From Luteolibacter pohnpeiensis (GTDB taxonomy: Bacteria; Verrucomicrobiota; Verrucomicrobiia; Verrucomicrobiales; Akkermansiaceae): a stretch of DNA of 64,000 nucleotides. The stretch lies in contig NZ_JAENIJ010000001.1 in NCBI RefSeq assembly GCF_016595435.1, positions 186,001 through 250,000 on the forward strand, read 5' to 3'. The notes under the pieces are model-generated. The model ran no database searches. It saw only the letters and a program-made list of their open reading frames with translations, and had not been told where the DNA came from. The translations under genes and the position numbers were made by a program. Below, piece by piece: positions 1,625 through 44,939 of this stretch (position 1 is the first letter of the stretch; each line of letters opens with the position of its first letter).

Positions 1625-2200
1625 ATGAAAAAGTCCCCCGGCCAGCCCCAGAAAACGGCAAGCTCCAGCGCTCCGCCCGCGAAGGAAACGGAGATTTCCG
1701 TCGAGGCATTTGTCGGCGCTGCGCTGCAGAAATATCAGGCGGCGCTGATCAGCTACGTCATCACGATTGTGCGCGACCCGGAGCGTGCGCGGGTTGTCGT
1801 TCGCGACACGTTCATTCGCCTGTGCCAGCAGGATTTTTCGAAAGTAAAAACCGATCTCAAAGTCTGGCTTTTGATCAATGGCCGGGATGCGGCATTACAG
1901 GTTTCACAGAAAGGAAAGCCTAGCCAGCCACCGGACGAGATCCGATGGCAGCGGGTTGCCGGACCGGATTTGTCGGCAGATGAAAAGTTTCTGCAAGACG
2001 AGCGATTCACCAAAATCATGCAGCTTCTCGATCAACTTCCGATCAAACAGCGGGAGGTTCTCATTCTTCATTGCCAGCAACGGATGAATGCTCTGGAGAT
2101 TTCCAAAATCACCGGACTGTCCTCCTCCCAAACAAAAGTCCATCTGCACGCAGGCCTGAAAAGGATGGGAGAATTGCTGCCTAACGATTTGAAAATCTGA
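1625..2200 (+). CDS. ECF-type sigma-70 family RNA polymerase sigma factor
   Basis: Small sigma factor of 191 residues. It has a region 2-like helix (ALISYVITIVRDPERARVVV, DTFIRLCQQDF) and a region 4 helix-turn-helix at the C-terminus (QLPIKQREVLILH, then ALEISKITGLSSSQTKVHLH). The N-terminal 30 residues are a polar extension. The ATG at 1625 follows the rex stop directly. An upstream in-frame start at 1583 would overlap rex by 41 nt and adds residues unrelated to sigma factors, so it was not used. The region 2 core is rather diverged (VVVRDTFIRL in place of the usual DLVQDTFL), so promoter recognition may be atypical. It is followed at 38 nt by an anti-sigma-like gene, the normal arrangement for ECF systems. 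Confidence 0.85.
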   Translation: MKKSPGQPQKTASSSAPPAKETEISVEAFVGAALQKYQAALISYVITIVRDPERARVVVRDTFIRLCQQDFSKVKTDLKVWLLINGRDAALQVSQKGKPSQPPDEIRWQRVAGPDLSADEKFLQDERFTKIMQLLDQLPIKQREVLILHCQQRMNALEISKITGLSSSQTKVHLHAGLKRMGELLPNDLKI

Positions 2201-33256: not shown

Positions 33257-36200
33257 TTAATGGTCTTTGGGATAGTCGGCTAAATTCTCAAGTTCGAATC
33301 TGAATATTCGGCCGAAGAAATCGACGAAAAACGGCTTACCTTCGGAATCGATGGCAGCGACCCCTGATGGGAGTAGAACACAGCGGTTCTGAACACGGGT
33401 TTCTGCGAGCGTTTTGACGCTCCCAGTTCGCAAGGTTAGGATGCTGGAAGGAATAGGGGTTATGTTGGTTGCTGGGCGATTATCAGAACGGAATTCGGGC
33501 GTAGTTGGTGGCTGGTTGGTAATGCTCGGTGGGTTGGATTGCCAGCCATCCAAATTTACACTAAAAAAACCATTTCGACATATAGCTCGTAGAATTTTAC
33601 CGTGCTCCGCAAAATGCAATGAATTCGCTTTTGTTGTTTCGAATAAACGGTGTGGATAGTCTCCAGGTTGGTCTAGCTGGATCAGATGGATTCCTGCATT
33701 CTTACCAGGCCATGCAAGATATTTTCCATCCGGCGAAAGAGCAATCTTGTCTAAGGTCTCAGTGTAGATGAATGCAGTAGGCTCCATGCTATAGAGAAGA
33801 TGGATTTCCTGATCTCTCAGATCTAGTAGATAAAATCGGTTTTCACGGGTATAGTAAATCACGCGACTGTCGGCGAAGCGAATCCATACAATGGCATGGA
33901 GCTCGCCACACGAACCATCGATCTTGAAATCTTTAGTAACTTTCGTGCTCAAATCAAACAAGGTTAGCCCCTGGTTGGTCAATGCAACGAATTGATGACT
34001 CGAAGGATCGACTAGAACCATTTGTCTAAATCCTTTTAGTTGACCAATTTTTTCGACACCTGGTGGCATGCCGCCAGTGAGAGAGCTATGTTCAATCCAA
34101 AGATCAGCGATGTAGATGGCGCTGCCATCATGAGGCTTGCTGCAAGTTAGAACAATCGTGCTGGTGGATTGAGGTGCAACGGATCGGTGGGTGGTGAATT
34201 CGCTGTGGAGGCTTGAGAAAGATTGCCAAGTTGGGAAGGGGATTTCGGGTGAAGGATCTTTCGAAAGAGTACTTCGGTCGATCTCATGCCCCGTGGAATC
34301 CCGGAAACTCAGTGCCAGCTGGACCCCGCTATTAGACAGTAACCATCCTCGAACACAGGGAGAAGGCGCAATTGGATTACAAGGGAAAGTGAGTAAATCT
34401 ATAGTCTGGGAACCGGTGTTTTCAGAAATTTCCATAACACGACTCTGTTCGAATGGTCCGTGAATATCTGATGATTTGAAGGGTGGACTCACTTCCGGTG
34501 CATCCATGACAATCCTCTCTCTGATTTGAATTGGAACAGACAATCGTATGTTTTTTCCTGACCGTTCTTTCGCGAGTAATGCGATAAATTGGCTGTCTTC
34601 TGGCAAATCAAGATCAATTTGTCCTGTTGCTTTTGCCGCTAAAACGGAGTGAAAGGTCTTCATACGATCGACCCGGTTACCGGTTACAAATTCCAAATCG
34701 TAGAGACCATCGAGAAAGGAAAAGTCGCAAGATGGAATAGTGTAATCATTTTGCGATTGGATGCTGGATAGTGACCAGCTGATTTTCCACGTTTCGCCGG
34801 TGAATATCGCGGATATTTGTGGCTGAGCGCCTGCTGGGTTTCGAGTTATCAGATCCAAGACTTGCTGGCGCCAGTTGCTATTATGAATTTTCGGGTCGAG
34901 TGGATATGCAAGCCACGGACGAAATTTTTCGTATAACGAAATATCGGATGAATTACTGGATAGCAACCGGTCGAATAAGGCAAGAACGTGTTGTGAGTAC
35001 TTTGGGCCAGGTGCAAGGTCCTTCAAAAAAGATGAGGCAATTAACTCAAGTCTGTTTTTGGGAATGGTTTTGAGGGAATTATGATCTGGAAAATTTGTTG
35101 CCCACATTTCTCGTGGTGCCTCGGCTTGACTGGTTAATCCACAAAACTCAATCCAGCTCACATCACGTGAATATCTGGCCATGGGCCAAGCGATTTCGTT
35201 GAGCATGAATCGTTTCGATTGGGAGTCCTCAGTCGTGATGAGCTGCTTGATTTGAGACCAGTCGGTATCGATAAAAGAGCCATCACCCAGCTTAGTCGCG
35301 AGAGTGAATTTGCTAAGACAGTCTTCAAATGACGAGAAAAGATCGCTGAGTTGGCCCGTTGAATGAATGAATCGAAACCGAAGTTTTTCGCCATCATTGG
35401 CTAAAAACTTCAGGAGTAGTAGCAGTTTATTTTTGAAGGAAATTTGCTGCTCTTGATTGAGTGACTTTAAGAACGGAATGATCGATTGATCCAAAGTTTC
35501 GGGATTAGGATAAGCCGCTAGCTTGATGATTAATCTGACACGTGCAGTCGCTGACGTTTCTGGATATCTCGATTCAGCATCTGCAAGTGGAATGGCTAAA
35601 TTGAGTTTGATCAGTGCTTCAATATCCAAATCATCGATGTTGAGATCGGTTGGCTGTGTCTGTGAAGCATGATTTGATGGAGTTGTTCGTACAGTGAAAT
35701 ACGCATCAGCTAAAATATCAACCGCTGTGGCCTGGTGATTTTGATCCACCAATTCACTCGCAATTTCAGCCAACATGCGACCGTTTGCTGGAGTTATGGC
35801 GCGGTAGCGGTTCAAGATAGGTTTGAGACTCTCTGGCTCGATTTTGGCTAGATGGCGGTAGAGAGGAAGAAAGTCGCTTTGGTCACTGATAGTTGGTATG
35901 GGTGATGTCGATTCCTCATCCAAAATGGGGGAATTCAGTAGTAATTCTACCAGTTGGTGATTGTTCTCTCTGGTGAATAGTTCGAAGGGATTCAATCGGG
36001 GGGATCTTGAGGAAGGCTGCGTCATGATTTGATGAATCGTTTTCATCAAATAAGAAGGAGAGACCTTGTAGAGTGATTCCATTGCTCTGAGGGCTAGCTC
36101 AGGGTTGTTTTCCTCTGTTGCTGCCGCAAGCACATCGGCCGCCACCCATCTTTCTGACGGGTCCAGCTTGAATAGTTGTTTTGCGTAGGGATAGATGGCT

Positions 36201-38902
36201 TGGGTCGAATGGGTGACATGGAAACTATGAAGGAGGCATCGAACTCGAAGGATGGTGATGTCTGATTTCCTTGCTTCTTCTAGCTGCTTGACTAGATCCT
36301 TTTCAAATCCGTCATACAGGTGGTTGTTTATCAGAATTTGATAAGAAGTATTCTCGGGTGAACTATCTGTTGTCCCATGGCTTGAATGAATGGATCGATT
36401 TGAATTCCAGAATTGTGAGTATCGGGCCAGTATTTGTTTTGCGAGATCGATTGCCCTTTCTGAATTTGACTCGTCGGATTCGACGCAAATTTTCAGTTGA
36501 TCAATGATATCCAAGGAATGGCTGTCACTCATTCCTGTGGGTAAGTCTTCCGGTTTCGGATCTGCGGAATTGAATTGTCTCTTGATTGTTTCCAGAATTT
36601 TTTTTGTATCTCTAACGGGCCGCCGTGCTGGTCTAAGATTATTTGGGACTAGATAGTTGTGATATGCGGTGAATGCGCGTGCTTTAGCTGGACAGAGATA
36701 CTGATCGCAGTTTTCCAAATAATGGGCAGATTCTTCGGGGGAATGGCCTCTAGCTATTGCTTCTGCAAACAGGAACATCCCGGCTGTTGGATCGATAGGG
36801 GAGGTTTTGTTGAAGTTCTCAATACGATCTTTGGCAATTGCTACCACCTTTTCGTCAGGACACAGATATTCACCTGTTTGAACCAGTAAATCATAAACGA
36901 GGGTGCGTTCTGGAAAATCTGCGAAGAAGATCCGGAGTCTTGCTTGTAGTTCGGTGTCCAGTTGGTTTGATTCTGGATTGAAATAGGATACACTATTTAC
37001 CCAAGGTGAGTGAATTGAGATGATTGAAAATATGGTATTCTGGGGCGGAGGGACGCGGTGATGGCCATCTATAGCGCGGTATGAGCTACTTGTGTCGAAT
37101 CCTTGGCCGAGGATTGATACATCCGGGGGCAAGAATAGGTAAATAAATGACAGTTCAGAGTTAGCCTCTACTTCTTCCAGATTTCTGGGAATGGGTTTTG
37201 TCTGAAGGGCCCGATATTTTTCCAATCCAGCTGCTGATTTAGGGATTGCATTGATTATGCTTTGGCGAAATGACTCAGAGTGCTCTCCTGCAGTTACGAT
37301 TACCTTGGAGATTGCCGTTTCCACGTCGGGATTCGGAACTCCAGAATTAATTAGAAAAGTGAATGTGGAATAGGCGTTAATGTGCAAATCCAGTGGGCTG
37401 ACTGATCGATCTCCCATCAATAGATCGGGCAATCGATCAAGTAATATAGCTAGAGATTCTTCCGATAATCCATGCTGCCTGGAGCGGTAATTGAAGTAAT
37501 CTAGCAGTCTGAATCCGGAAATGCTTGGTGGTAAATTCTGGAAATGGCAAAGTGGTATGGTTTTGTCAATTTGATCCTCCAAATCTGCTGCAATCAAATA
37601 ATAAATCTGTCTTTCAGGGGATAATTTTTCGAACTTCGGATTGGTTTTCAGAATTTGGTAGCATGTTTCTGGTTTTATCAGATTTGATAACCTTCTGAGC
37701 GCCTTGTAGGCATTGTCACCCTGATATAGTTCTTGATCACTCAGTTCTTCGTGAAGATCTGTAGCTGCAACTTCTAAATATTTTACAGATTCATTCCTCT
37801 TTGTGATTTGGGATGACGCCATGATCAGGTTTAGGTCACTATTTCCTGGATCTGTCGTGAAGATATCCAGCAGGCGTTGCTTGATTTCTGGAGTAACATG
37901 ACCCATCGGTATTCCGGGGCGACTTGTAAATAAATCTGCCGTTTCAATTTGACCTGTCGGCATATTTAGCCAAGCGATGAGCGGTTGTGAATACCTTCCG
38001 CAAAGCTGGAGTAATCGCCGTCTTTCGCCGGTCGTCAGGTCTCCACGGTTCAAGGCTTCGGCTAAATATCGGTTCAAGATAGGTTCGTTATTGGCATGGA
38101 TCTGATAGAGGGTTTCTAGATCGCCGACGGAAGGTTTTTTGCCAGCCTCTTCAATCGCTTTATTATATTCACTTGTTTGGCCTAGCGCGTCATGCCACAA
38201 TGCTCTCAAGACTGGCGATTCTGTTTCCTGTAGCAGCTTGTCCACATTGCCTGTGCGCCTAGCAATTTCTAAATGTTGGATCGCCAATTTGGTCCTAACT
38301 CTTCCTGCTAGCGGATCCTGTTGTTCCAGAAATGACAGCAATTCCATCGCCTCATCCTGATGGTTGGCAATGACATCGTTCCTTACCACTGAAAGCCATA
38401 GTTGAACATTCGAGAGGGAAAGAGTGTCTCCATCATGGATGGTCCTTTTGGCTTCCTCGGTTTCTCCTAATTTCCAGAGAAGTGATGCTTCTCGTGCAAT
38501 GTCGGTAATGGGTCCTCCTCGCTGCGCATCCAGTGCTGCGGGATAATCGTGATCTTCTTCCAGTAAATTGGTAAGGCATAGCTGGATATTCGGATTTGGC
38601 TGTTCTTTAGCCATCGACGCGCGTAACGCGGCGATAAATTCCTTACGATGTTCCGATGACATCGGCAGTCCCACGAAGCCGCTCATGAGAACATCATCTC
38701 TCATCACTAAAGTAGGGCGTGGTATGGCTGCTACGACAGTCGCCGGGGTCTTGCCGACAACATCAAAAAAGTCTGGTTTTTGGGTATTCTCCGCTGTTTC
38801 GCCAAATGCAGGCGAGAAAATTGGGGATACCCATACCAGCGCCAAAAAAAGAATGGCATGGCTCATCAACATAATGATTCGGGTTAATTTGCGAGAAGGC
38901 AC
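33257..38902 (-). CDS. Giant secreted protein of unknown function (1881 aa)
   Basis: 1881 residues with a signal peptide (IIMLMSHAILFLALVWVSPIF). Residues 80-1250 are largely helical with TPR/Sel1-like cadence, for example REASLLWKLGETEEAKRTI and AIDLAKQILARYSQFW. A beta-rich region follows at about 1330-1640. The last 220 residues look like a beta-propeller (FVALTNQGLTLFDLS, YYTRENRFYLLDLRDQEI, LSPDGKYLAWPGKNAGIHLI). This is not a recognised named family. The organisation suggests a periplasmic or outer-membrane scaffold; no catalytic motif was seen. The gene is A/T-richer than most of the window. It stands 131 nt upstream of the kinase-apt-pgi group on the same strand. Confidence 0.7.
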   Translation of the reverse strand: MPSRKLTRIIMLMSHAILFLALVWVSPIFSPAFGETAENTQKPDFFDVVGKTPATVVAAIPRPTLVMRDDVLMSGFVGLPMSSEHRKEFIAALRASMAKEQPNPNIQLCLTNLLEEDHDYPAALDAQRGGPITDIAREASLLWKLGETEEAKRTIHDGDTLSLSNVQLWLSVVRNDVIANHQDEAMELLSFLEQQDPLAGRVRTKLAIQHLEIARRTGNVDKLLQETESPVLRALWHDALGQTSEYNKAIEEAGKKPSVGDLETLYQIHANNEPILNRYLAEALNRGDLTTGERRRLLQLCGRYSQPLIAWLNMPTGQIETADLFTSRPGIPMGHVTPEIKQRLLDIFTTDPGNSDLNLIMASSQITKRNESVKYLEVAATDLHEELSDQELYQGDNAYKALRRLSNLIKPETCYQILKTNPKFEKLSPERQIYYLIAADLEDQIDKTIPLCHFQNLPPSISGFRLLDYFNYRSRQHGLSEESLAILLDRLPDLLMGDRSVSPLDLHINAYSTFTFLINSGVPNPDVETAISKVIVTAGEHSESFRQSIINAIPKSAAGLEKYRALQTKPIPRNLEEVEANSELSFIYLFLPPDVSILGQGFDTSSSYRAIDGHHRVPPPQNTIFSIISIHSPWVNSVSYFNPESNQLDTELQARLRIFFADFPERTLVYDLLVQTGEYLCPDEKVVAIAKDRIENFNKTSPIDPTAGMFLFAEAIARGHSPEESAHYLENCDQYLCPAKARAFTAYHNYLVPNNLRPARRPVRDTKKILETIKRQFNSADPKPEDLPTGMSDSHSLDIIDQLKICVESDESNSERAIDLAKQILARYSQFWNSNRSIHSSHGTTDSSPENTSYQILINNHLYDGFEKDLVKQLEEARKSDITILRVRCLLHSFHVTHSTQAIYPYAKQLFKLDPSERWVAADVLAAATEENNPELALRAMESLYKVSPSYLMKTIHQIMTQPSSRSPRLNPFELFTRENNHQLVELLLNSPILDEESTSPIPTISDQSDFLPLYRHLAKIEPESLKPILNRYRAITPANGRMLAEIASELVDQNHQATAVDILADAYFTVRTTPSNHASQTQPTDLNIDDLDIEALIKLNLAIPLADAESRYPETSATARVRLIIKLAAYPNPETLDQSIIPFLKSLNQEQQISFKNKLLLLLKFLANDGEKLRFRFIHSTGQLSDLFSSFEDCLSKFTLATKLGDGSFIDTDWSQIKQLITTEDSQSKRFMLNEIAWPMARYSRDVSWIEFCGLTSQAEAPREMWATNFPDHNSLKTIPKNRLELIASSFLKDLAPGPKYSQHVLALFDRLLSSNSSDISLYEKFRPWLAYPLDPKIHNSNWRQQVLDLITRNPAGAQPQISAIFTGETWKISWSLSSIQSQNDYTIPSCDFSFLDGLYDLEFVTGNRVDRMKTFHSVLAAKATGQIDLDLPEDSQFIALLAKERSGKNIRLSVPIQIRERIVMDAPEVSPPFKSSDIHGPFEQSRVMEISENTGSQTIDLLTFPCNPIAPSPCVRGWLLSNSGVQLALSFRDSTGHEIDRSTLSKDPSPEIPFPTWQSFSSLHSEFTTHRSVAPQSTSTIVLTCSKPHDGSAIYIADLWIEHSSLTGGMPPGVEKIGQLKGFRQMVLVDPSSHQFVALTNQGLTLFDLSTKVTKDFKIDGSCGELHAIVWIRFADSRVIYYTRENRFYLLDLRDQEIHLLYSMEPTAFIYTETLDKIALSPDGKYLAWPGKNAGIHLIQLDQPGDYPHRLFETTKANSLHFAEHGKILRAICRNGFFSVNLDGWQSNPPSITNQPPTTPEFRSDNRPATNITPIPSSILTLRTGSVKTLAETRVQNRCVLLPSGVAAIDSEGKPFFVDFFGRIFRFELENLADYPKDH

Positions 38903-39544: not shown

Positions 39545-41725
39545 TCAAGGCTTTGTAAAAGATAGCCTGAAAAAGCGAGATGGCTCCGTTATCAGTTCGG
39601 TGTAAGGCGGCTGCGGTGATGGTGATATTTCGGTCCAGTCCTCGCCAAGATCGACGTTGGATTCCAAGACACCGGTGCCGGACCAATCGACCACAATGTT
39701 TCCTTGCACGACCACGGGTTTGTAGAGTTGAGGCTCTTCTGTTGATGAAGCGCTGATGATCAGGGCGCCGAGATAAGTGAAGTGATAAGCATTGTTGTTC
39801 GAGGAACCCGGAGATACTTCAATGGTTAGAACTCCTTCTGCCGTGGGTGTCAGATCCGTCAGGACAGCAACTGTGTTGATGTTGTTAGATGGATTCAACG
39901 AGGTTGAGTTTACGCTAGCTCCGGTAACCGTATAAAGTGTCTCACGATTATCGGAAACATCAGTTCGTGAAGCGTAAAACGTGAGCGAATAGGTCATCGC
40001 TGGATCCAGTCCGGTGATTTTGAAGGCTGGGAAAATATTCGCGCGTTCGTTGAAGAACTCGGTGTTTCCGTAAAACGAATCCTGGCTTGCTGTCGTTGGG
40101 AAATCAGTCGCTGTTAGAGTGCCGTTCGGGTTCGCATCGTTGAACCGTCGTATCATTTCCAATTGAAGGTTTCCTGCATTTCCTGCCTCGTCCAATAGTG
40201 GGCCAAGCACTCCGGAATCTGTGGCGGCGACAGCAGAAGTGACATTGTTCCAGGTCCGGTCGGGATCGGTGGTGGAGCTGGTAACGGTCGCTCCAAAATC
40301 ACAATACCAACTGCTGCCCGAAGCGGACTGGGCGTGGGTGATGAAGAGAGATCCGGCGGAAAAGGCATTGCCAGCGATGTCGGTGACCACTGGATTCACG
40401 CCAACCACAAATCCATCTTCCACGGAGCTTTCCAGCACCAGCGTGACCGATTTTCCGTCGGACGAAAGCGTGGCGGAAATGACTTTCACGACTTCGCCAT
40501 GGTAGGCGACGGTGTAATTCGCCGCGATCGCCGCTTGTTCGGAAGCAAGCGCTTCACTGAAGCCCAGCTGGATCGTCGTGGAATCCGTTAAGCTGGCTTC
40601 CAGCGGCGTGGGGGGCACTTCATCCGATGTTACGGTCAAAACCACCGGGTCGCTGGTCAGGGTCGAAACTGCATTGGTGATTTCCACTTTAAAAACAGCT
40701 CCATTCAAATCTGAATCTGCAGCTTGGATGGTATAGCTTAATTCATTCGCACCATCGATCGCTTTATCGTTCTTGAACCACTGGATGGATTCCGGCTCCG
40801 ATCCGCGAATCAGCGCGTTAAAAGTTACCGATTGGTTTTCGCTAACCGTTTGGGAAGTAGGCTGGCTGACAAATGATAATTCCACCGTTCCGGTCACGGT
40901 TTGCCAGGCCATGCGTTCGAGAAATGCCGGATCTTCCGTTAGATTCAATCCCAAGGAACTGATCGCCTCCTCCGTGTGCAGTCCTTCCGGGCTTTCGCCG
41001 TAGATGGTTGCATAGAAAACCGCCGCGCTGAGGAAGTATCCATTGTCATTTCCGTGGTATTCGTCACTGCCGTGCAAGTCCGCGAAATCCGTATCCGATT
41101 CGGCGAGCAAACCGCCCGCGTTTTCCCATGCATCGCCGACCGGGGAGATGAGGACTGGTGCGTTCTCAGGATGATCGGTGGTTAAGGCAAGGGCGAGAGC
41201 TTGATAGTTGGTGCGCAGCTCCGATTGCATCTCTGAGGTGGTCGCGAACGTGCTGGCGGTCGAGCTACCCGTGATCAATGAATGTTTCGCGCTGCGCGCC
41301 CAGGTTTCGTAAAGGATCACCTGAGTCGCCGAATGATTCGCGATAACGCGATCATATAAAAGCGTTCCATAAGTCATGTGATCCTCGACGCTGCCAATGT
41401 GAGTGGGTTGCGTTGAGTAGTTTTGCAGGATCACGTAGTCCCATTGGCGCGATGCAATCGCAGCCTGGCTGGTGGCATCATTTTCATGAAATTCAAAGCT
41501 CTGCCCGCCAACGGCCCGCATTTCCGTGGTCGGATCTTCATGGCCTCCGGCGATCGCGAGTCGGTCGAAAATTTCAGGCACACTGGTAGTGCCTCCCTCG
41601 CCATAGGTGAAACTATTACCTATAAATAAAATCTTTTGCTCGGCATGAGTCGAAATGCTGAGGGCAAAAAGCGTGGCAGCGGAAAGAAAACCGGAAATGT
41701 GAATTCTAGGCATGGGTAGGTTCAT
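39545..41725 (-). CDS. Secreted SGNH-like protein with Ig-like and shared C-terminal domains
   Basis: 726 residues with a signal peptide (ISGFLSAATLFALSISTHA). Residues 29-285 resemble an SGNH/GDSL esterase: the block-I-like KILFIGNSFTYGEGG carries the candidate Ser, and DYVILQNYS follows. An Ig-like domain spans about 290-375 (SFVSQPTSQTVSENQSVTFN), then an SbsA/Big-like domain. Residues 480-670 form a beta domain with SSWYCDFGA, TASQDSFYGN and YSLTFYASRTDVSDNRETLY. The same domain makes up most of the PEP-CTERM protein at 44250-44939. The end (DWTEISPSPQPPY, RFFRLSFTKP) is a familiar verrucomicrobial terminal segment. The gene is divergent from the ECF sigma gene, 156 nt away. The esterase activity is inferred. 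Confidence 0.75.
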   Translation of the reverse strand: MNLPMPRIHISGFLSAATLFALSISTHAEQKILFIGNSFTYGEGGTTSVPEIFDRLAIAGGHEDPTTEMRAVGGQSFEFHENDATSQAAIASRQWDYVILQNYSTQPTHIGSVEDHMTYGTLLYDRVIANHSATQVILYETWARSAKHSLITGSSTASTFATTSEMQSELRTNYQALALALTTDHPENAPVLISPVGDAWENAGGLLAESDTDFADLHGSDEYHGNDNGYFLSAAVFYATIYGESPEGLHTEEAISSLGLNLTEDPAFLERMAWQTVTGTVELSFVSQPTSQTVSENQSVTFNALIRGSEPESIQWFKNDKAIDGANELSYTIQAADSDLNGAVFKVEITNAVSTLTSDPVVLTVTSDEVPPTPLEASLTDSTTIQLGFSEALASEQAAIAANYTVAYHGEVVKVISATLSSDGKSVTLVLESSVEDGFVVGVNPVVTDIAGNAFSAGSLFITHAQSASGSSWYCDFGATVTSSTTDPDRTWNNVTSAVAATDSGVLGPLLDEAGNAGNLQLEMIRRFNDANPNGTLTATDFPTTASQDSFYGNTEFFNERANIFPAFKITGLDPAMTYSLTFYASRTDVSDNRETLYTVTGASVNSTSLNPSNNINTVAVLTDLTPTAEGVLTIEVSPGSSNNNAYHFTYLGALIISASSTEEPQLYKPVVVQGNIVVDWSGTGVLESNVDLGEDWTEISPSPQPPYTELITEPSRFFRLSFTKP

Positions 41726-41881
41726 TCAATGGGTTTCGGAAGATTGGCTTAGAAAGGGTGTGCCGAAATGGCGGAGTACCACTCTTTTTTCCTCCCCGAC
41801 TGTTTTTTCTCCGCCACGGAAAAACATTGCCGCATTGGAAATTTCCGGGCTTGGTGAACTTGCAACATGTGCCGCCACATG

Positions 41882-42463
41882 ATGGACGAATCGACCGAGA
41901 AGACCTTGATCAATGCCTCTAAGCTGGGGGACATCGCTGCTTTCGACGAACTCGTGAAGTCGAACCAAGCCAGCATCCGCGCGTACTTCCGCATGCGAGT
42001 CTTCGATTGGGCGGCGGCTGATGATCTGGCGCAGGAAGTTTTTCTAACCGCTTACAAGCGACTGGGAACCTTCCGCGGTGAAGCCCGGTTCGGTGCCTGG
42101 ACCCGTGGAATCGCCTCCAATCACTTGCGCAACTGGTTGCGCCAGCGTCGCGATGAACCCGTTGGCGGTGGGGAAGAGCTGCAATCGCTTTTCACCAGCC
42201 AGATCGACCTCAGCTACCAATTCGAAAGTTCGGTTGAACCCGAGCCGGAGGAGGCGGTGATGCTCGCGGCCTTGGATAACTGCTTGAGCAAACTCGGCAG
42301 GTCCGCGCGCAGCTTGTTAGACGAGCGATACCATGTCGGCAAAACCGTTCGTGAGATTGCAGATGGGACTTCGCGCGGCTATTCGGCCATTGTGATGCAG
42401 CTTCTGCGCATCCGGAAAATTCTCGCAACCTGCATCCGCCAGCAGCTCGGTCCCACCCGATGA
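41882..42463 (+). CDS. ECF-type sigma-70 family RNA polymerase sigma factor
   Basis: 193-residue sigma factor. Region 2 contains AAFDELVKSNQASIRAYF, DWAAADDLAQEVFLTAYKRL (the usual core-binding helix) and the -10-recognition stretch GEARFGAWTRGIASNHLRNW. Region 4 is SLLDERYHVGKTVREIAD followed by GTSRGYSAIVMQLLRIRKIL. A second ATG lies 3 nt upstream at 41879. The stop overlaps the start of the next gene by 4 nt (ATGA), so translation of sigma and its anti-sigma-transporter partner is coupled. Shared ancestry with the ECF group found beside FecR-like genes in Verrucomicrobiota and Planctomycetes is likely. Target promoters were not identified, but secreted proteins flank it on both sides. Confidence 0.92.
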   Translation: MDESTEKTLINASKLGDIAAFDELVKSNQASIRAYFRMRVFDWAAADDLAQEVFLTAYKRLGTFRGEARFGAWTRGIASNHLRNWLRQRRDEPVGGGEELQSLFTSQIDLSYQFESSVEPEPEEAVMLAALDNCLSKLGRSARSLLDERYHVGKTVREIADGTSRGYSAIVMQLLRIRKILATCIRQQLGPTR

Positions 42464-44139
42464 AAAAGCAGGATGCGGATGAATTGCTGGCCCGTGTCCT
42501 CGGCGGCAAATCCAGCGAGGAGGATCGGGCATCGTTACTCGACTGGCTTGCTCAAAACCAGGACCAGCGATCAGAAGCAGCTGAGCAGTTGGTGATCGAT
42601 AGCCTGCTCGGTGTGACTTTGGAAAAGAATTCCGGCGATGATTTTCGAGATCGTCTCCTGCAAAGACTGGCACTCGAACAAGAGCGGAGATCATTCCAAA
42701 ATCTGGGTGCCAGAGTGCAGCTGAATAGCCGCAAGCTTGGGTTCATCCTCGGCCCGCTGTTGGCGACGATCAGCTGGTTCCTGCTCCATTTTCTGCTGGC
42801 GGATGCTCCGGCGATCGCTGGAAAAGCGGCACCTGCGTGTTGGGCTGGCGCGGTGCTCATCTGGTGCGTGGTGTGGTGGATTTTCGAACCGGTACCCATC
42901 GCCGCTACTTCGCTCATTCCACTCGCGCTTTTTCCGCTGTTCGGAGTTTTGGACGAAGTCGAGATTGCGGATTCTTATGCCAATCACTTGGTTATACTTT
43001 TCCTTTCAGGCTTTATGCTTTCGCGCGCGATGGAGCAGAGCGGCGCCCACCGGAGGCTGGCACTGGGGCTTGTTAGAATGATCGGTGGCTCGGGAGGGCG
43101 GCCCTTGGTGCTCGCTTGCATGATTGCTTCCGCGGGTCTCAGCATGTGGACATCGAACACGGTGACGGTGCTCATTTTGCTGCCGATTGTGATCGCGATT
43201 ATCGATCAACGGCGGGATCGCCAGCTTGCGACGCCGCTTTTGCTTGGGATTGCTTATGCCGCGGCCATTGGCGGGATTGCTTCGCCCATTGGCACTCCAC
43301 CGAATGCCGTGCTCATTGCCCAGGCAGATTTGCTCGTCGCAGCGGGGCAGCTTGCGCATCCGGTTGGATTCGTCGATTGGGTCAAATTCGGGCTGCCTGT
43401 TTCGCTCATTCTGGTTCCTCTGGCCTGGCTGTGGCTCACACGCGGAATTTTACCAGCCGCTCCGTTTCGCATCGCGCCGCTCGGTCCTTGGAGGAAAGCG
43501 GAAGTCCGCGTTTCCTTGGTCCTCGGGTTGACCGCAGTGCTCTGGATGACCCGCTCGGATCCCTACGGCGGCTGGAGTTCGCTACTCGGGGTGCCGACCC
43601 TGAAAGACAGCACCGTCGGCCTGTTGGCGGTGATCGCGCTTTTCCTCATTCCCAACGGCAACCGGGATGGAAAAAATCTGCTGGAGTGGGAGCACGCCGC
43701 GAAAATTCCCTGGAACGTTCTCATCCTGTTAGGCAGCGGTATCGCCATCGGAAATGCCATCGCCGCCACCGGTCTCAGCCAGGCGATTGCAGAAAACCTC
43801 AATCTACTTGGCGGGCTTTCGACCTTGCCCATGGTGGTTGTCGTCGTCATCGCGGTTAGCCTTCTCACCGAAATTGGCAGCAACACGGCCACTTCCACCA
43901 TTTTACTTCCGCTGCTAGCAGCTACCGCTCTCGCCGCGCAGATTCCGCCCATGCTGTTGATGGTTCCGGCTGCCATGGCAACGAGTTGCTCGTTTCTGCT
44001 TCCCGTGGCAACGCCGCCCAATGCGGTGGTGTTTGCCGTTGGTGAGTTTTCCATCCGCAGAATGCTTTTCGAAGGAATGGTGCTGAAAGCCATCAGCGCG
44101 GTGGTCATCATTGCCGTTTGCTACCTGATGATGGCCTGA
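42460..44139 (+). CDS. Anti-sigma-like domain fused to an SLC13/DASS sodium:anion symporter
   Basis: 559 residues. Residues 1-75 are soluble and helical (ADELLARVLGGKSSEEDRAS, LLDWLAQNQDQRSEAAEQL). They match the cytoplasmic N-terminal domain of FecR/DUF4880-type anti-sigma factors. Residues 92-559 are a complete divalent-anion:Na+ symporter. Both SNT motifs are present (TSNTVTVLILLP at 231-242, GSNTATSTILLP at 473-484), each followed by its partner motif (GTPPN at 278-282, ATPPN at 517-521). Substrates of this family are dicarboxylates, citrate or sulfate. The start codon overlaps the sigma stop. The simplest reading is that the transporter is both carrier and membrane anchor of the anti-sigma domain, so transport state could control sigma release. 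Architecture is seen; mechanism is inferred. Confidence 0.85.
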   Translation: MKKQDADELLARVLGGKSSEEDRASLLDWLAQNQDQRSEAAEQLVIDSLLGVTLEKNSGDDFRDRLLQRLALEQERRSFQNLGARVQLNSRKLGFILGPLLATISWFLLHFLLADAPAIAGKAAPACWAGAVLIWCVVWWIFEPVPIAATSLIPLALFPLFGVLDEVEIADSYANHLVILFLSGFMLSRAMEQSGAHRRLALGLVRMIGGSGGRPLVLACMIASAGLSMWTSNTVTVLILLPIVIAIIDQRRDRQLATPLLLGIAYAAAIGGIASPIGTPPNAVLIAQADLLVAAGQLAHPVGFVDWVKFGLPVSLILVPLAWLWLTRGILPAAPFRIAPLGPWRKAEVRVSLVLGLTAVLWMTRSDPYGGWSSLLGVPTLKDSTVGLLAVIALFLIPNGNRDGKNLLEWEHAAKIPWNVLILLGSGIAIGNAIAATGLSQAIAENLNLLGGLSTLPMVVVVVIAVSLLTEIGSNTATSTILLPLLAATALAAQIPPMLLMVPAAMATSCSFLLPVATPPNAVVFAVGEFSIRRMLFEGMVLKAISAVVIIAVCYLMMA

Positions 44140-44195
44140 GGCGATATTTTTCGTTTTTTGGTGTGGTACGATTCCTCGGTTCGACACCCACATTA

Positions 44196-44249: not shown

Positions 44250-44939
44250 ATGATCCCCAAACTATTGATCCCTGCCATTGCGGCAGTCTTCGCTACCGGT
44301 TCCTTAAACGCCGCAGTCGTTTACATCGATTTCGGTGGCAGCGACACCAGTGGAAACTGGAACTCCATCACCGATGAAGTCAGTGGCTCCATCCTCGATG
44401 CCATCGACAGCAACGGCCAGTTTACCGGCATCTACGTGGAAGTGACCTCCCGCTTCAATGCCTCCAACTACACCGGCACAACCGATTCCTCAGCGGGCTA
44501 TCCATCGACTGCGACCGGCGATTCGTTCTATGGCAACGCCTATCAGGCATACAACGGGCAACCGATCATTGCCAGCTCCACCGTGACGTTTTCCAATCTC
44601 ACCGCCGGTGTGCAGTACAGTTTCACCTTTTACGCCTCACGCGTCGGCGTGGCCGACAACCGCATCACCCGCTACACGCTCACCGGAGAGGGCGATGCGG
44701 AGTATGTTGAACTGAATACCTCTAACAACGTCACCAATTCCGTCACGATTTATGACGTCGTCGCGGATGAGAATGGTGAAATCACGTTGGATGTAGGTGC
44801 AGGCACTGGGAATGACAACACGACCGGGTTTTACTACCTCGGAGTGGTTGAAATCAATTACGTCGTCCCTGAGCCGACTTCCGGCATTCTTGCTCTGAGC
44901 GGCCTTGCTCTCGCGACCTTGCGCAGACGGCGGCGCTAG
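44250..44939 (+). CDS. PEP-CTERM sorting-domain protein
   Basis: 229 residues from the ATG at 44250 (the longer frame from 44118 overlaps the transporter and has no signal). It has a signal peptide (IPKLLIPAIAAVFATGSLNA). The body is a single beta domain (VVYIDFGGSD, TATGDSFYGN, YSFTFYASRVGVADNRITRY, FYYLGVVEI). It is clearly homologous to residues 480-670 of the secreted SGNH-like protein at 39.5-41.7 kb. The C-terminus VPEPTSGILALSGLALATL followed by RRRRR is a PEP-CTERM anchor for exosortase processing. It lies 110 nt downstream of the sigma/anti-sigma-transporter pair and may be controlled by that sigma factor. Confidence 0.85.
   Translation: MIPKLLIPAIAAVFATGSLNAAVVYIDFGGSDTSGNWNSITDEVSGSILDAIDSNGQFTGIYVEVTSRFNASNYTGTTDSSAGYPSTATGDSFYGNAYQAYNGQPIIASSTVTFSNLTAGVQYSFTFYASRVGVADNRITRYTLTGEGDAEYVELNTSNNVTNSVTIYDVVADENGEITLDVGAGTGNDNTTGFYYLGVVEINYVVPEPTSGILALSGLALATLRRRRR

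Follow-up and report, generated by a model that had tools for sequence, protein, structure and literature searches.

A putative anti-sigma domain joined to a DASS/SLC13 carrier and co-encoded with an ECF sigma factor in Luteolibacter pohnpeiensis

The window, the 64,000-nucleotide stretch of DNA that was analysed, contains an ECF sigma factor gene directly followed by a gene whose product combines an anti-sigma-type domain with a carrier of the DASS/SLC13 family. The genes on either side encode a secreted DUF4886 protein, in divergent orientation, and a small PEP-CTERM protein. The features of this region are as follows.

39545-41725, minus strand: secreted DUF4886 (SGNH-like) and Ig-domain protein, divergently encoded, candidate regulon member
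41758-41782, minus strand: weak candidate promoter/operator element GTGSTAC-N4-CC-N8-ACAC upstream of the DUF4886 gene
41867-42463, plus strand: ECF sigma factor, TIGR02989-like (Rhodopirellula/Verrucomicrobium type), 198 residues, identified by domain searches
42460-44139, plus strand: fusion of anti-sigma domain and DASS/SLC13 carrier, 559 residues in an uninterrupted frame
42460-42735, plus strand: anti-sigma domain, residues 1-92, homologous to the N-termini of the FecR-type anti-sigma factors of sister sigmas
42634-42798, plus strand: continuous helix predicted by AlphaFold, residues 59-113, from the last anti-sigma helix into DASS TM1
42739-44136, plus strand: DASS/SLC13 carrier domain, residues ~94-559, identified by TIGR00785, PF00939 and fold match
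43153-43161, plus strand: first SNT motif, residues 232-234
43294-43305, plus strand: first TPPN motif, residues 279-282
43879-43887, plus strand: second SNT motif, residues 474-476
44011-44022, plus strand: second TPPN motif, residues 518-521
44163-44187, plus strand: weak candidate element GTGSTAC-N4-CC-N8-ACAC upstream of the PEP-CTERM gene
44250-44939, plus strand: small PEP-CTERM exported protein, candidate regulon member

The product of the sigma factor gene contains Sigma70 region 2 (E 1.9e-11) and is recognized as an ECF sigma factor by the general model TIGR02937, which matches residues 25-188 with 72.6 bits against a cutoff of 42.9. The match to TIGR02989 reaches the end of the model with an E-value of 1.3e-34, but its 119.5 bits fall short of the cutoff of 124.55; judged by its sequence, the protein is a close relative of the TIGR02989 type that formally lies slightly under the cutoff. 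A second in-frame ATG at 41882 is the start that was used in the original prediction. One other ECF-like sigma match is found within the window at 1718-2149 (+), though it is distant (E 3e-4), and the gene following it encodes a product (L064) with an anti-sigma-like N-terminus and one transmembrane helix.

The stop codon of the sigma gene and the start codon of the fusion gene share four nucleotides (ATGA). The original prediction had described an ECF sigma factor coupled by such an overlap to an unbroken 559-codon frame, and this holds: the frame runs without interruption and the four nucleotides are shared. The same pairing of sigma and fusion is present in a second genome (G135).

No Pfam or NCBIfam model scores above threshold for residues 1-92. 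DUF4880 (PF16220) matches the full protein with an E-value of 0.23 (11.8 bits) and residues 1-92 alone with 0.059 (13.7 bits), both below the gathering cutoff of 25 bits, and the NCBIfam 'antisigma' model is also sub-threshold (E 0.17 for the whole protein, 0.025 for the N-terminus alone). A family-specific profile was constructed from 26 N-termini of the FecR-type anti-sigma factors that partner the nearest sister sigmas, with the fusions left out. It matches residues 4-80 with a domain E-value of 8.7e-10 in the full protein, residues 1-92 alone with 1.5e-11 and the G135 fusion with 6.2e-12. As controls, the best E-value among 2000 composition shuffles is 0.012, and zero unfused DASS proteins are matched by the profile. 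A profile search of the PDB returns MucA and an entry labelled RseA N-terminal domain as its top two entries (E 0.003-0.004).

The AlphaFold model of the anti-sigma domain consists of four helices (residues 3-14, 20-32, 34-55 and 61-97) with a mean pLDDT of 80.6, about 86-95 over residues 1-50 and 62-75 beyond; a mixed alignment (A2) that placed anti-sigma fragments inside the DASS part was left out of the folding. The predicted model has the three-helix bundle and fourth helix of the class I anti-sigma fold. Foldseek analysis of the predicted domain against 350,542 chains gives RsiW, RslA and MucA as leading matches, all from structures solved with the sigma factor bound, followed by ChrR and the partner of SigK. 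The E-values are weak (0.7-3), as expected for a small helical domain, and most of the leading matches are anti-sigma factors. By sequence homology, residues 1 to about 92 clearly belong to the class I anti-sigma domains of the FecR-partner type, and on the basis of this homology and the shared operon the domain would bind the co-encoded sigma factor. The anti-sigma N-terminus proposed for this carrier is thus upheld by the family-specific profile. Its description as FecR/DUF4880-like is right in kind; the proposed check against Pfam anti-sigma and DUF4880 models gives only sub-threshold scores, and the periplasmic FecR domain (PF04773) is absent from the fusion in a Pfam scan.

The window genome has several further sigma paralogues (L037-L040, L044, L045) whose genes overlap one that encodes a similar N-terminus and, after it, one transmembrane helix, and the closest sigmas in other genomes of the order (42-53% identity) have the same downstream arrangement. 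The partners of these sister sigmas contain the anti-sigma domain, a transmembrane helix, FecR and LamG in that order, and mostly begin with the same 4-nt overlap. Eight of these related anti-sigma factors were scanned: the FecR domain is matched in all eight, above cutoff in five, and Laminin_G_3 is matched in seven. The FecR/LamG anti-sigma factors of Verrucomicrobiota therefore have in common with the fusion a sigma clade, the N-terminal domain, in most cases the 4-nt overlap, and the spacing to the first transmembrane helix. They differ from it in being single-pass proteins with periplasmic FecR and Laminin_G_3 domains, where the fusion has a multi-pass carrier instead. L045, located on C55 of this genome, is a sigma with the same overlap onto an anti-sigma-like protein, and in that partner the stretch between the N-terminal domain and the transmembrane helix is longer than usual.

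The remainder of the fusion protein is identified as a DASS/SLC13 carrier by TIGR00785 (232.7 bits, cutoff 198.6) and PF00939 (E 3.3e-50). As originally predicted, the symporter is complete and retains both SNT and both TPPN motifs in the window protein; in the G135 fusion the first TPPN is replaced by TPAN. The full-length model has a pTM of 0.74, and its carrier part, which is predicted with good confidence, matches NaCT, NaDC3, NaS1 and VcINDY at E-values of about 1e-20. The characterized carriers VcINDY, NaDC1/3 and NaCT are likewise complete, with SNT and TPPN motifs and this fold; the fusion adds the 92-residue anti-sigma domain, the coupling to a sigma gene and some altered conserved positions. 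The window carrier departs from 5 of 39 strongly conserved DASS positions, the most among the 61 sequences compared. A nonfunctional carrier kept as a dead sensor was considered on the basis of a small reference set, in which 21 of 92 invariant positions are broken; with the drop to 5 of 39 in the wider set, mild relaxation at most is claimed. These departures, together with TPAN in G135, indicate that transport may be impaired, and efficient transport by the fused carrier is uncertain. The binding motifs are otherwise preserved, and the carrier therefore probably still recognizes its ligand. Comparison of the two fusions gives 66% identity for the carrier and 40% for the anti-sigma domain, so conservation is stronger in the carrier. 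The window genome additionally encodes a DASS paralogue that is unfused (39% identity).

The second fusion, in G135, belongs to another family of the same order and is full length, with 60% identity over residues 4-558 in an open frame. The sigma gene directly upstream of it encodes a protein 53% identical to the window sigma. Draft contigs and the sub-threshold scores of the public domain models would leave room for an assembly or annotation artefact, or for an N-terminus other than an anti-sigma domain. Set against this are the 276-kb length of the window contig, the profile match described above, and the independent presence of the fusion with its neighbours in G135, which, barring an error common to both assemblies, excludes chance or assembly error as its source; the artefact explanation is hardly credible. 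The search of other genomes suggested with the original prediction recovers the fusion intact, and in neither genome is it resolved into separate genes with an intervening stop.

The fusion is rare, being present in two genomes among several hundred. Searches of 75 genomes of the G135 family, of 73 genomes of the window's genus, and of overlapping samples of 387 genomes from the order, 384 from the class and 388 from the phylum gave no further fusion. At about 60 unfused DASS loci, no sigma gene lies nearby and no anti-sigma domain is present, and a homologous N-terminal extension was not found in the long open frames at other DASS loci. A Cycloclasticus MAG locus (L036), where tblastn coverage spans residues 1-559, was rejected as a fusion, as its ORFs correspond to an ordinary 459-residue DASS protein beside a GGDEF/EAL gene. 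In phylogenetic trees the two fusion-associated sigmas form one clade (98/92); sigmas with FecR partners are found next to this clade as well as outside it, so the fusion looks derived. The two fused carriers also form one clade (100/100), nested within a broader set of unfused carriers that come from related genomes and Gammaproteobacteria MAGs. These sequence relationships are most simply read as a single event that replaced the sensory part of a FecR-type anti-sigma factor with a carrier.

In DASS carriers such as VcINDY, the N-terminus is cytoplasmic and TM1 lies in the scaffold domain. With such an N-terminus the anti-sigma domain would lie on the side of the membrane where it is needed, adjoining the moving elevator domain. 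Residues 59-113 are predicted as a single helix, meaning that the last anti-sigma helix runs directly into TM1. FecR has a cytoplasmic part followed by a transmembrane segment at residues 85-100 (PMC9249621), and the spacing to TM1 in the model of the fusion is the same. This spacing agrees with a carrier that serves only as an anchor or scaffold, with regulated proteolysis or some other trigger freeing the sigma, as happens in FecR/RseA-type systems; most membrane anti-sigma factors have a transmembrane anchor, and for many of them release is proteolytic (PMC9249621, PMC8103513). However, the whole carrier of about 465 residues is kept at the higher identity given above with its SNT motifs intact, which is more than a mere anchor would need, and a periplasmic sensor domain is absent, making the anchor explanation unlikely.

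Control in the reverse direction would have the sigma factor or the anti-sigma domain regulate the carrier, with sigma release as a secondary effect. In Pho90-type carriers, SPX is a cytoplasmic domain that gates transport. Yeast Pho90 is the closest architectural analogue, a DASS-fold carrier that, like the fusion, has a cytoplasmic regulatory domain at its N-terminus (for the role of the SPX domain, see PMC7381174). Its SPX domain belongs to eukaryotic phosphate control with no sigma factor, unlike the fusion, whose N-terminal domain is specifically of an anti-sigma family and shares its operon with a sigma that is sister to those partnered by domains of this kind. Reverse control is thus regarded as distinctly unlikely. 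Two separate products are another alternative, in which a long form acts as anti-sigma factor and a short form from an internal start is an ordinary transporter, tethered without coupling. Candidate in-frame starts do occur near the junction, a GTG near residue 86 in the window and an ATG at a similar position in G135. By eye, no clear ribosome-binding site precedes the GTG, neither genome has a stop or a separate gene, and the unfused DASS loci are without a nearby sigma; we judge this alternative very unlikely.

The two genomes have a four-gene neighbourhood in common, with a rearranged gene order. A homologue of the DUF4886 protein adjoins the G135 fusion, and a 41% identical homologue of the PEP-CTERM protein adjoins the G135 sigma gene. 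The main domain of the PEP-CTERM protein corresponds to the last ~190 residues of the DUF4886 protein in the window (35% identity, 3e-26), and for this common domain no Pfam model scores above cutoff, the PEP-CTERM tail being the exception. A 25-base element lies ahead of the DUF4886 genes of both genomes and, in the window, also ahead of the PEP-CTERM gene, which is three of the four intergenic regions, and is absent from the region between sigma and PEP-CTERM genes in G135. The element was found post hoc and 18 of 2567 shuffles are equally good, giving a p of about 0.007 before correction for the choice of three regions out of four. A scan of both genomes identified one further perfect match, on C77 of G000. 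The DUF4886 and PEP-CTERM genes are proposed as the regulon, for which the neighbourhood evidence is good and the promoter evidence is weak. Elsewhere in the window, at 33257-38902 (-), lies a gene for a predicted exported protein of 1881 residues with no Pfam match above threshold. In G135, another sigma-like gene and a serine/threonine-kinase-like protein follow the module at L124 (6730-9779, -).

Considered together, the protein is probably a membrane sensor and anti-sigma factor in one chain, with the state of the carrier controlling release of the sigma factor. The cytoplasmic N-terminal domain (residues 1 to about 92) would hold the co-encoded ECF sigma, as homology and operon structure suggest, and the DASS carrier would take the place of the periplasmic FecR/LamG sensor of the sister systems. 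Binding of substrate or Na+, or the elevator movement of the carrier, may alter the anti-sigma domain by way of the unbroken helix 4-TM1 or by contact with the moving transport domain, and the sigma factor would then be released or re-captured. Once freed, it may transcribe its own operon along with the DUF4886 and PEP-CTERM genes, a target set to which the conserved neighbourhood and the weak motif point. The proposal that the Na+/anion symporter itself acts as the anti-sigma factor's sensory domain, its occupancy or transport state directly setting sigma activity and switching on genes for secreted proteins, is given slightly better than even chances. The carrier may also import its anion, in which case the protein would be a transceptor; it does have the defining arrangement of a carrier fused to a signalling output domain.

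Among known systems, the nearest precedents are CbrA and Pho90. CbrA combines an SLC5 transporter and a histidine kinase in one chain and has been termed a rare transceptor (PMC13022988). CbrA and CrbS, with their SLC5-STAC-histidine kinase arrangement, resemble the fusion in joining a symporter-family domain to a transcription-control output in one chain (PMC13022988, PMC7096432, PMC5715377). They differ in the carrier family and in a kinase output through STAC/PAS, whereas the output of the fusion would be direct sequestration of a sigma factor. IutY and ECF36-type proteins are also unusual fusions within ECF sigma systems (PMC8999054, PMC9249621), but there the sigma and anti-sigma are joined to each other without a transporter. 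Anti-sigma domains occur in combination with a variety of sensory domains, which within a given group are conserved (PMC7406223). A fusion of anti-sigma domain and carrier was not encountered among the papers found, a literature that does not include the main ECF classification (10.1093/nar/gkaa1229). The protein may accordingly be described as a FecR-clade anti-sigma factor with a DASS carrier as its putative sensor, and as transceptor-like if the carrier does gate sigma release.

ECF sigma factors are a major means by which bacteria link transcription to the environment, and how a signal leads to release of the anti-sigma factor is often not understood. If the proposed mechanism is correct, the fusion represents a form of ECF signalling absent from the literature searched, with a secondary transporter as the anti-sigma sensor, and adds a new output to the small set of transceptors (SLC5-kinase, SPX-DASS). 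The fusion indicates that a whole carrier can take the place of an anti-sigma factor's input domain, and with a putative sensor module from one of the structurally best-understood transporter families, the question of sigma release becomes directly accessible through the VcINDY/NaDC ligands and binding-site mutants already known. In a first look, G185 and G135 have 93 and 63 sigma candidates respectively, far above most of their relatives, which suggests large expansions of ECF systems in the order.
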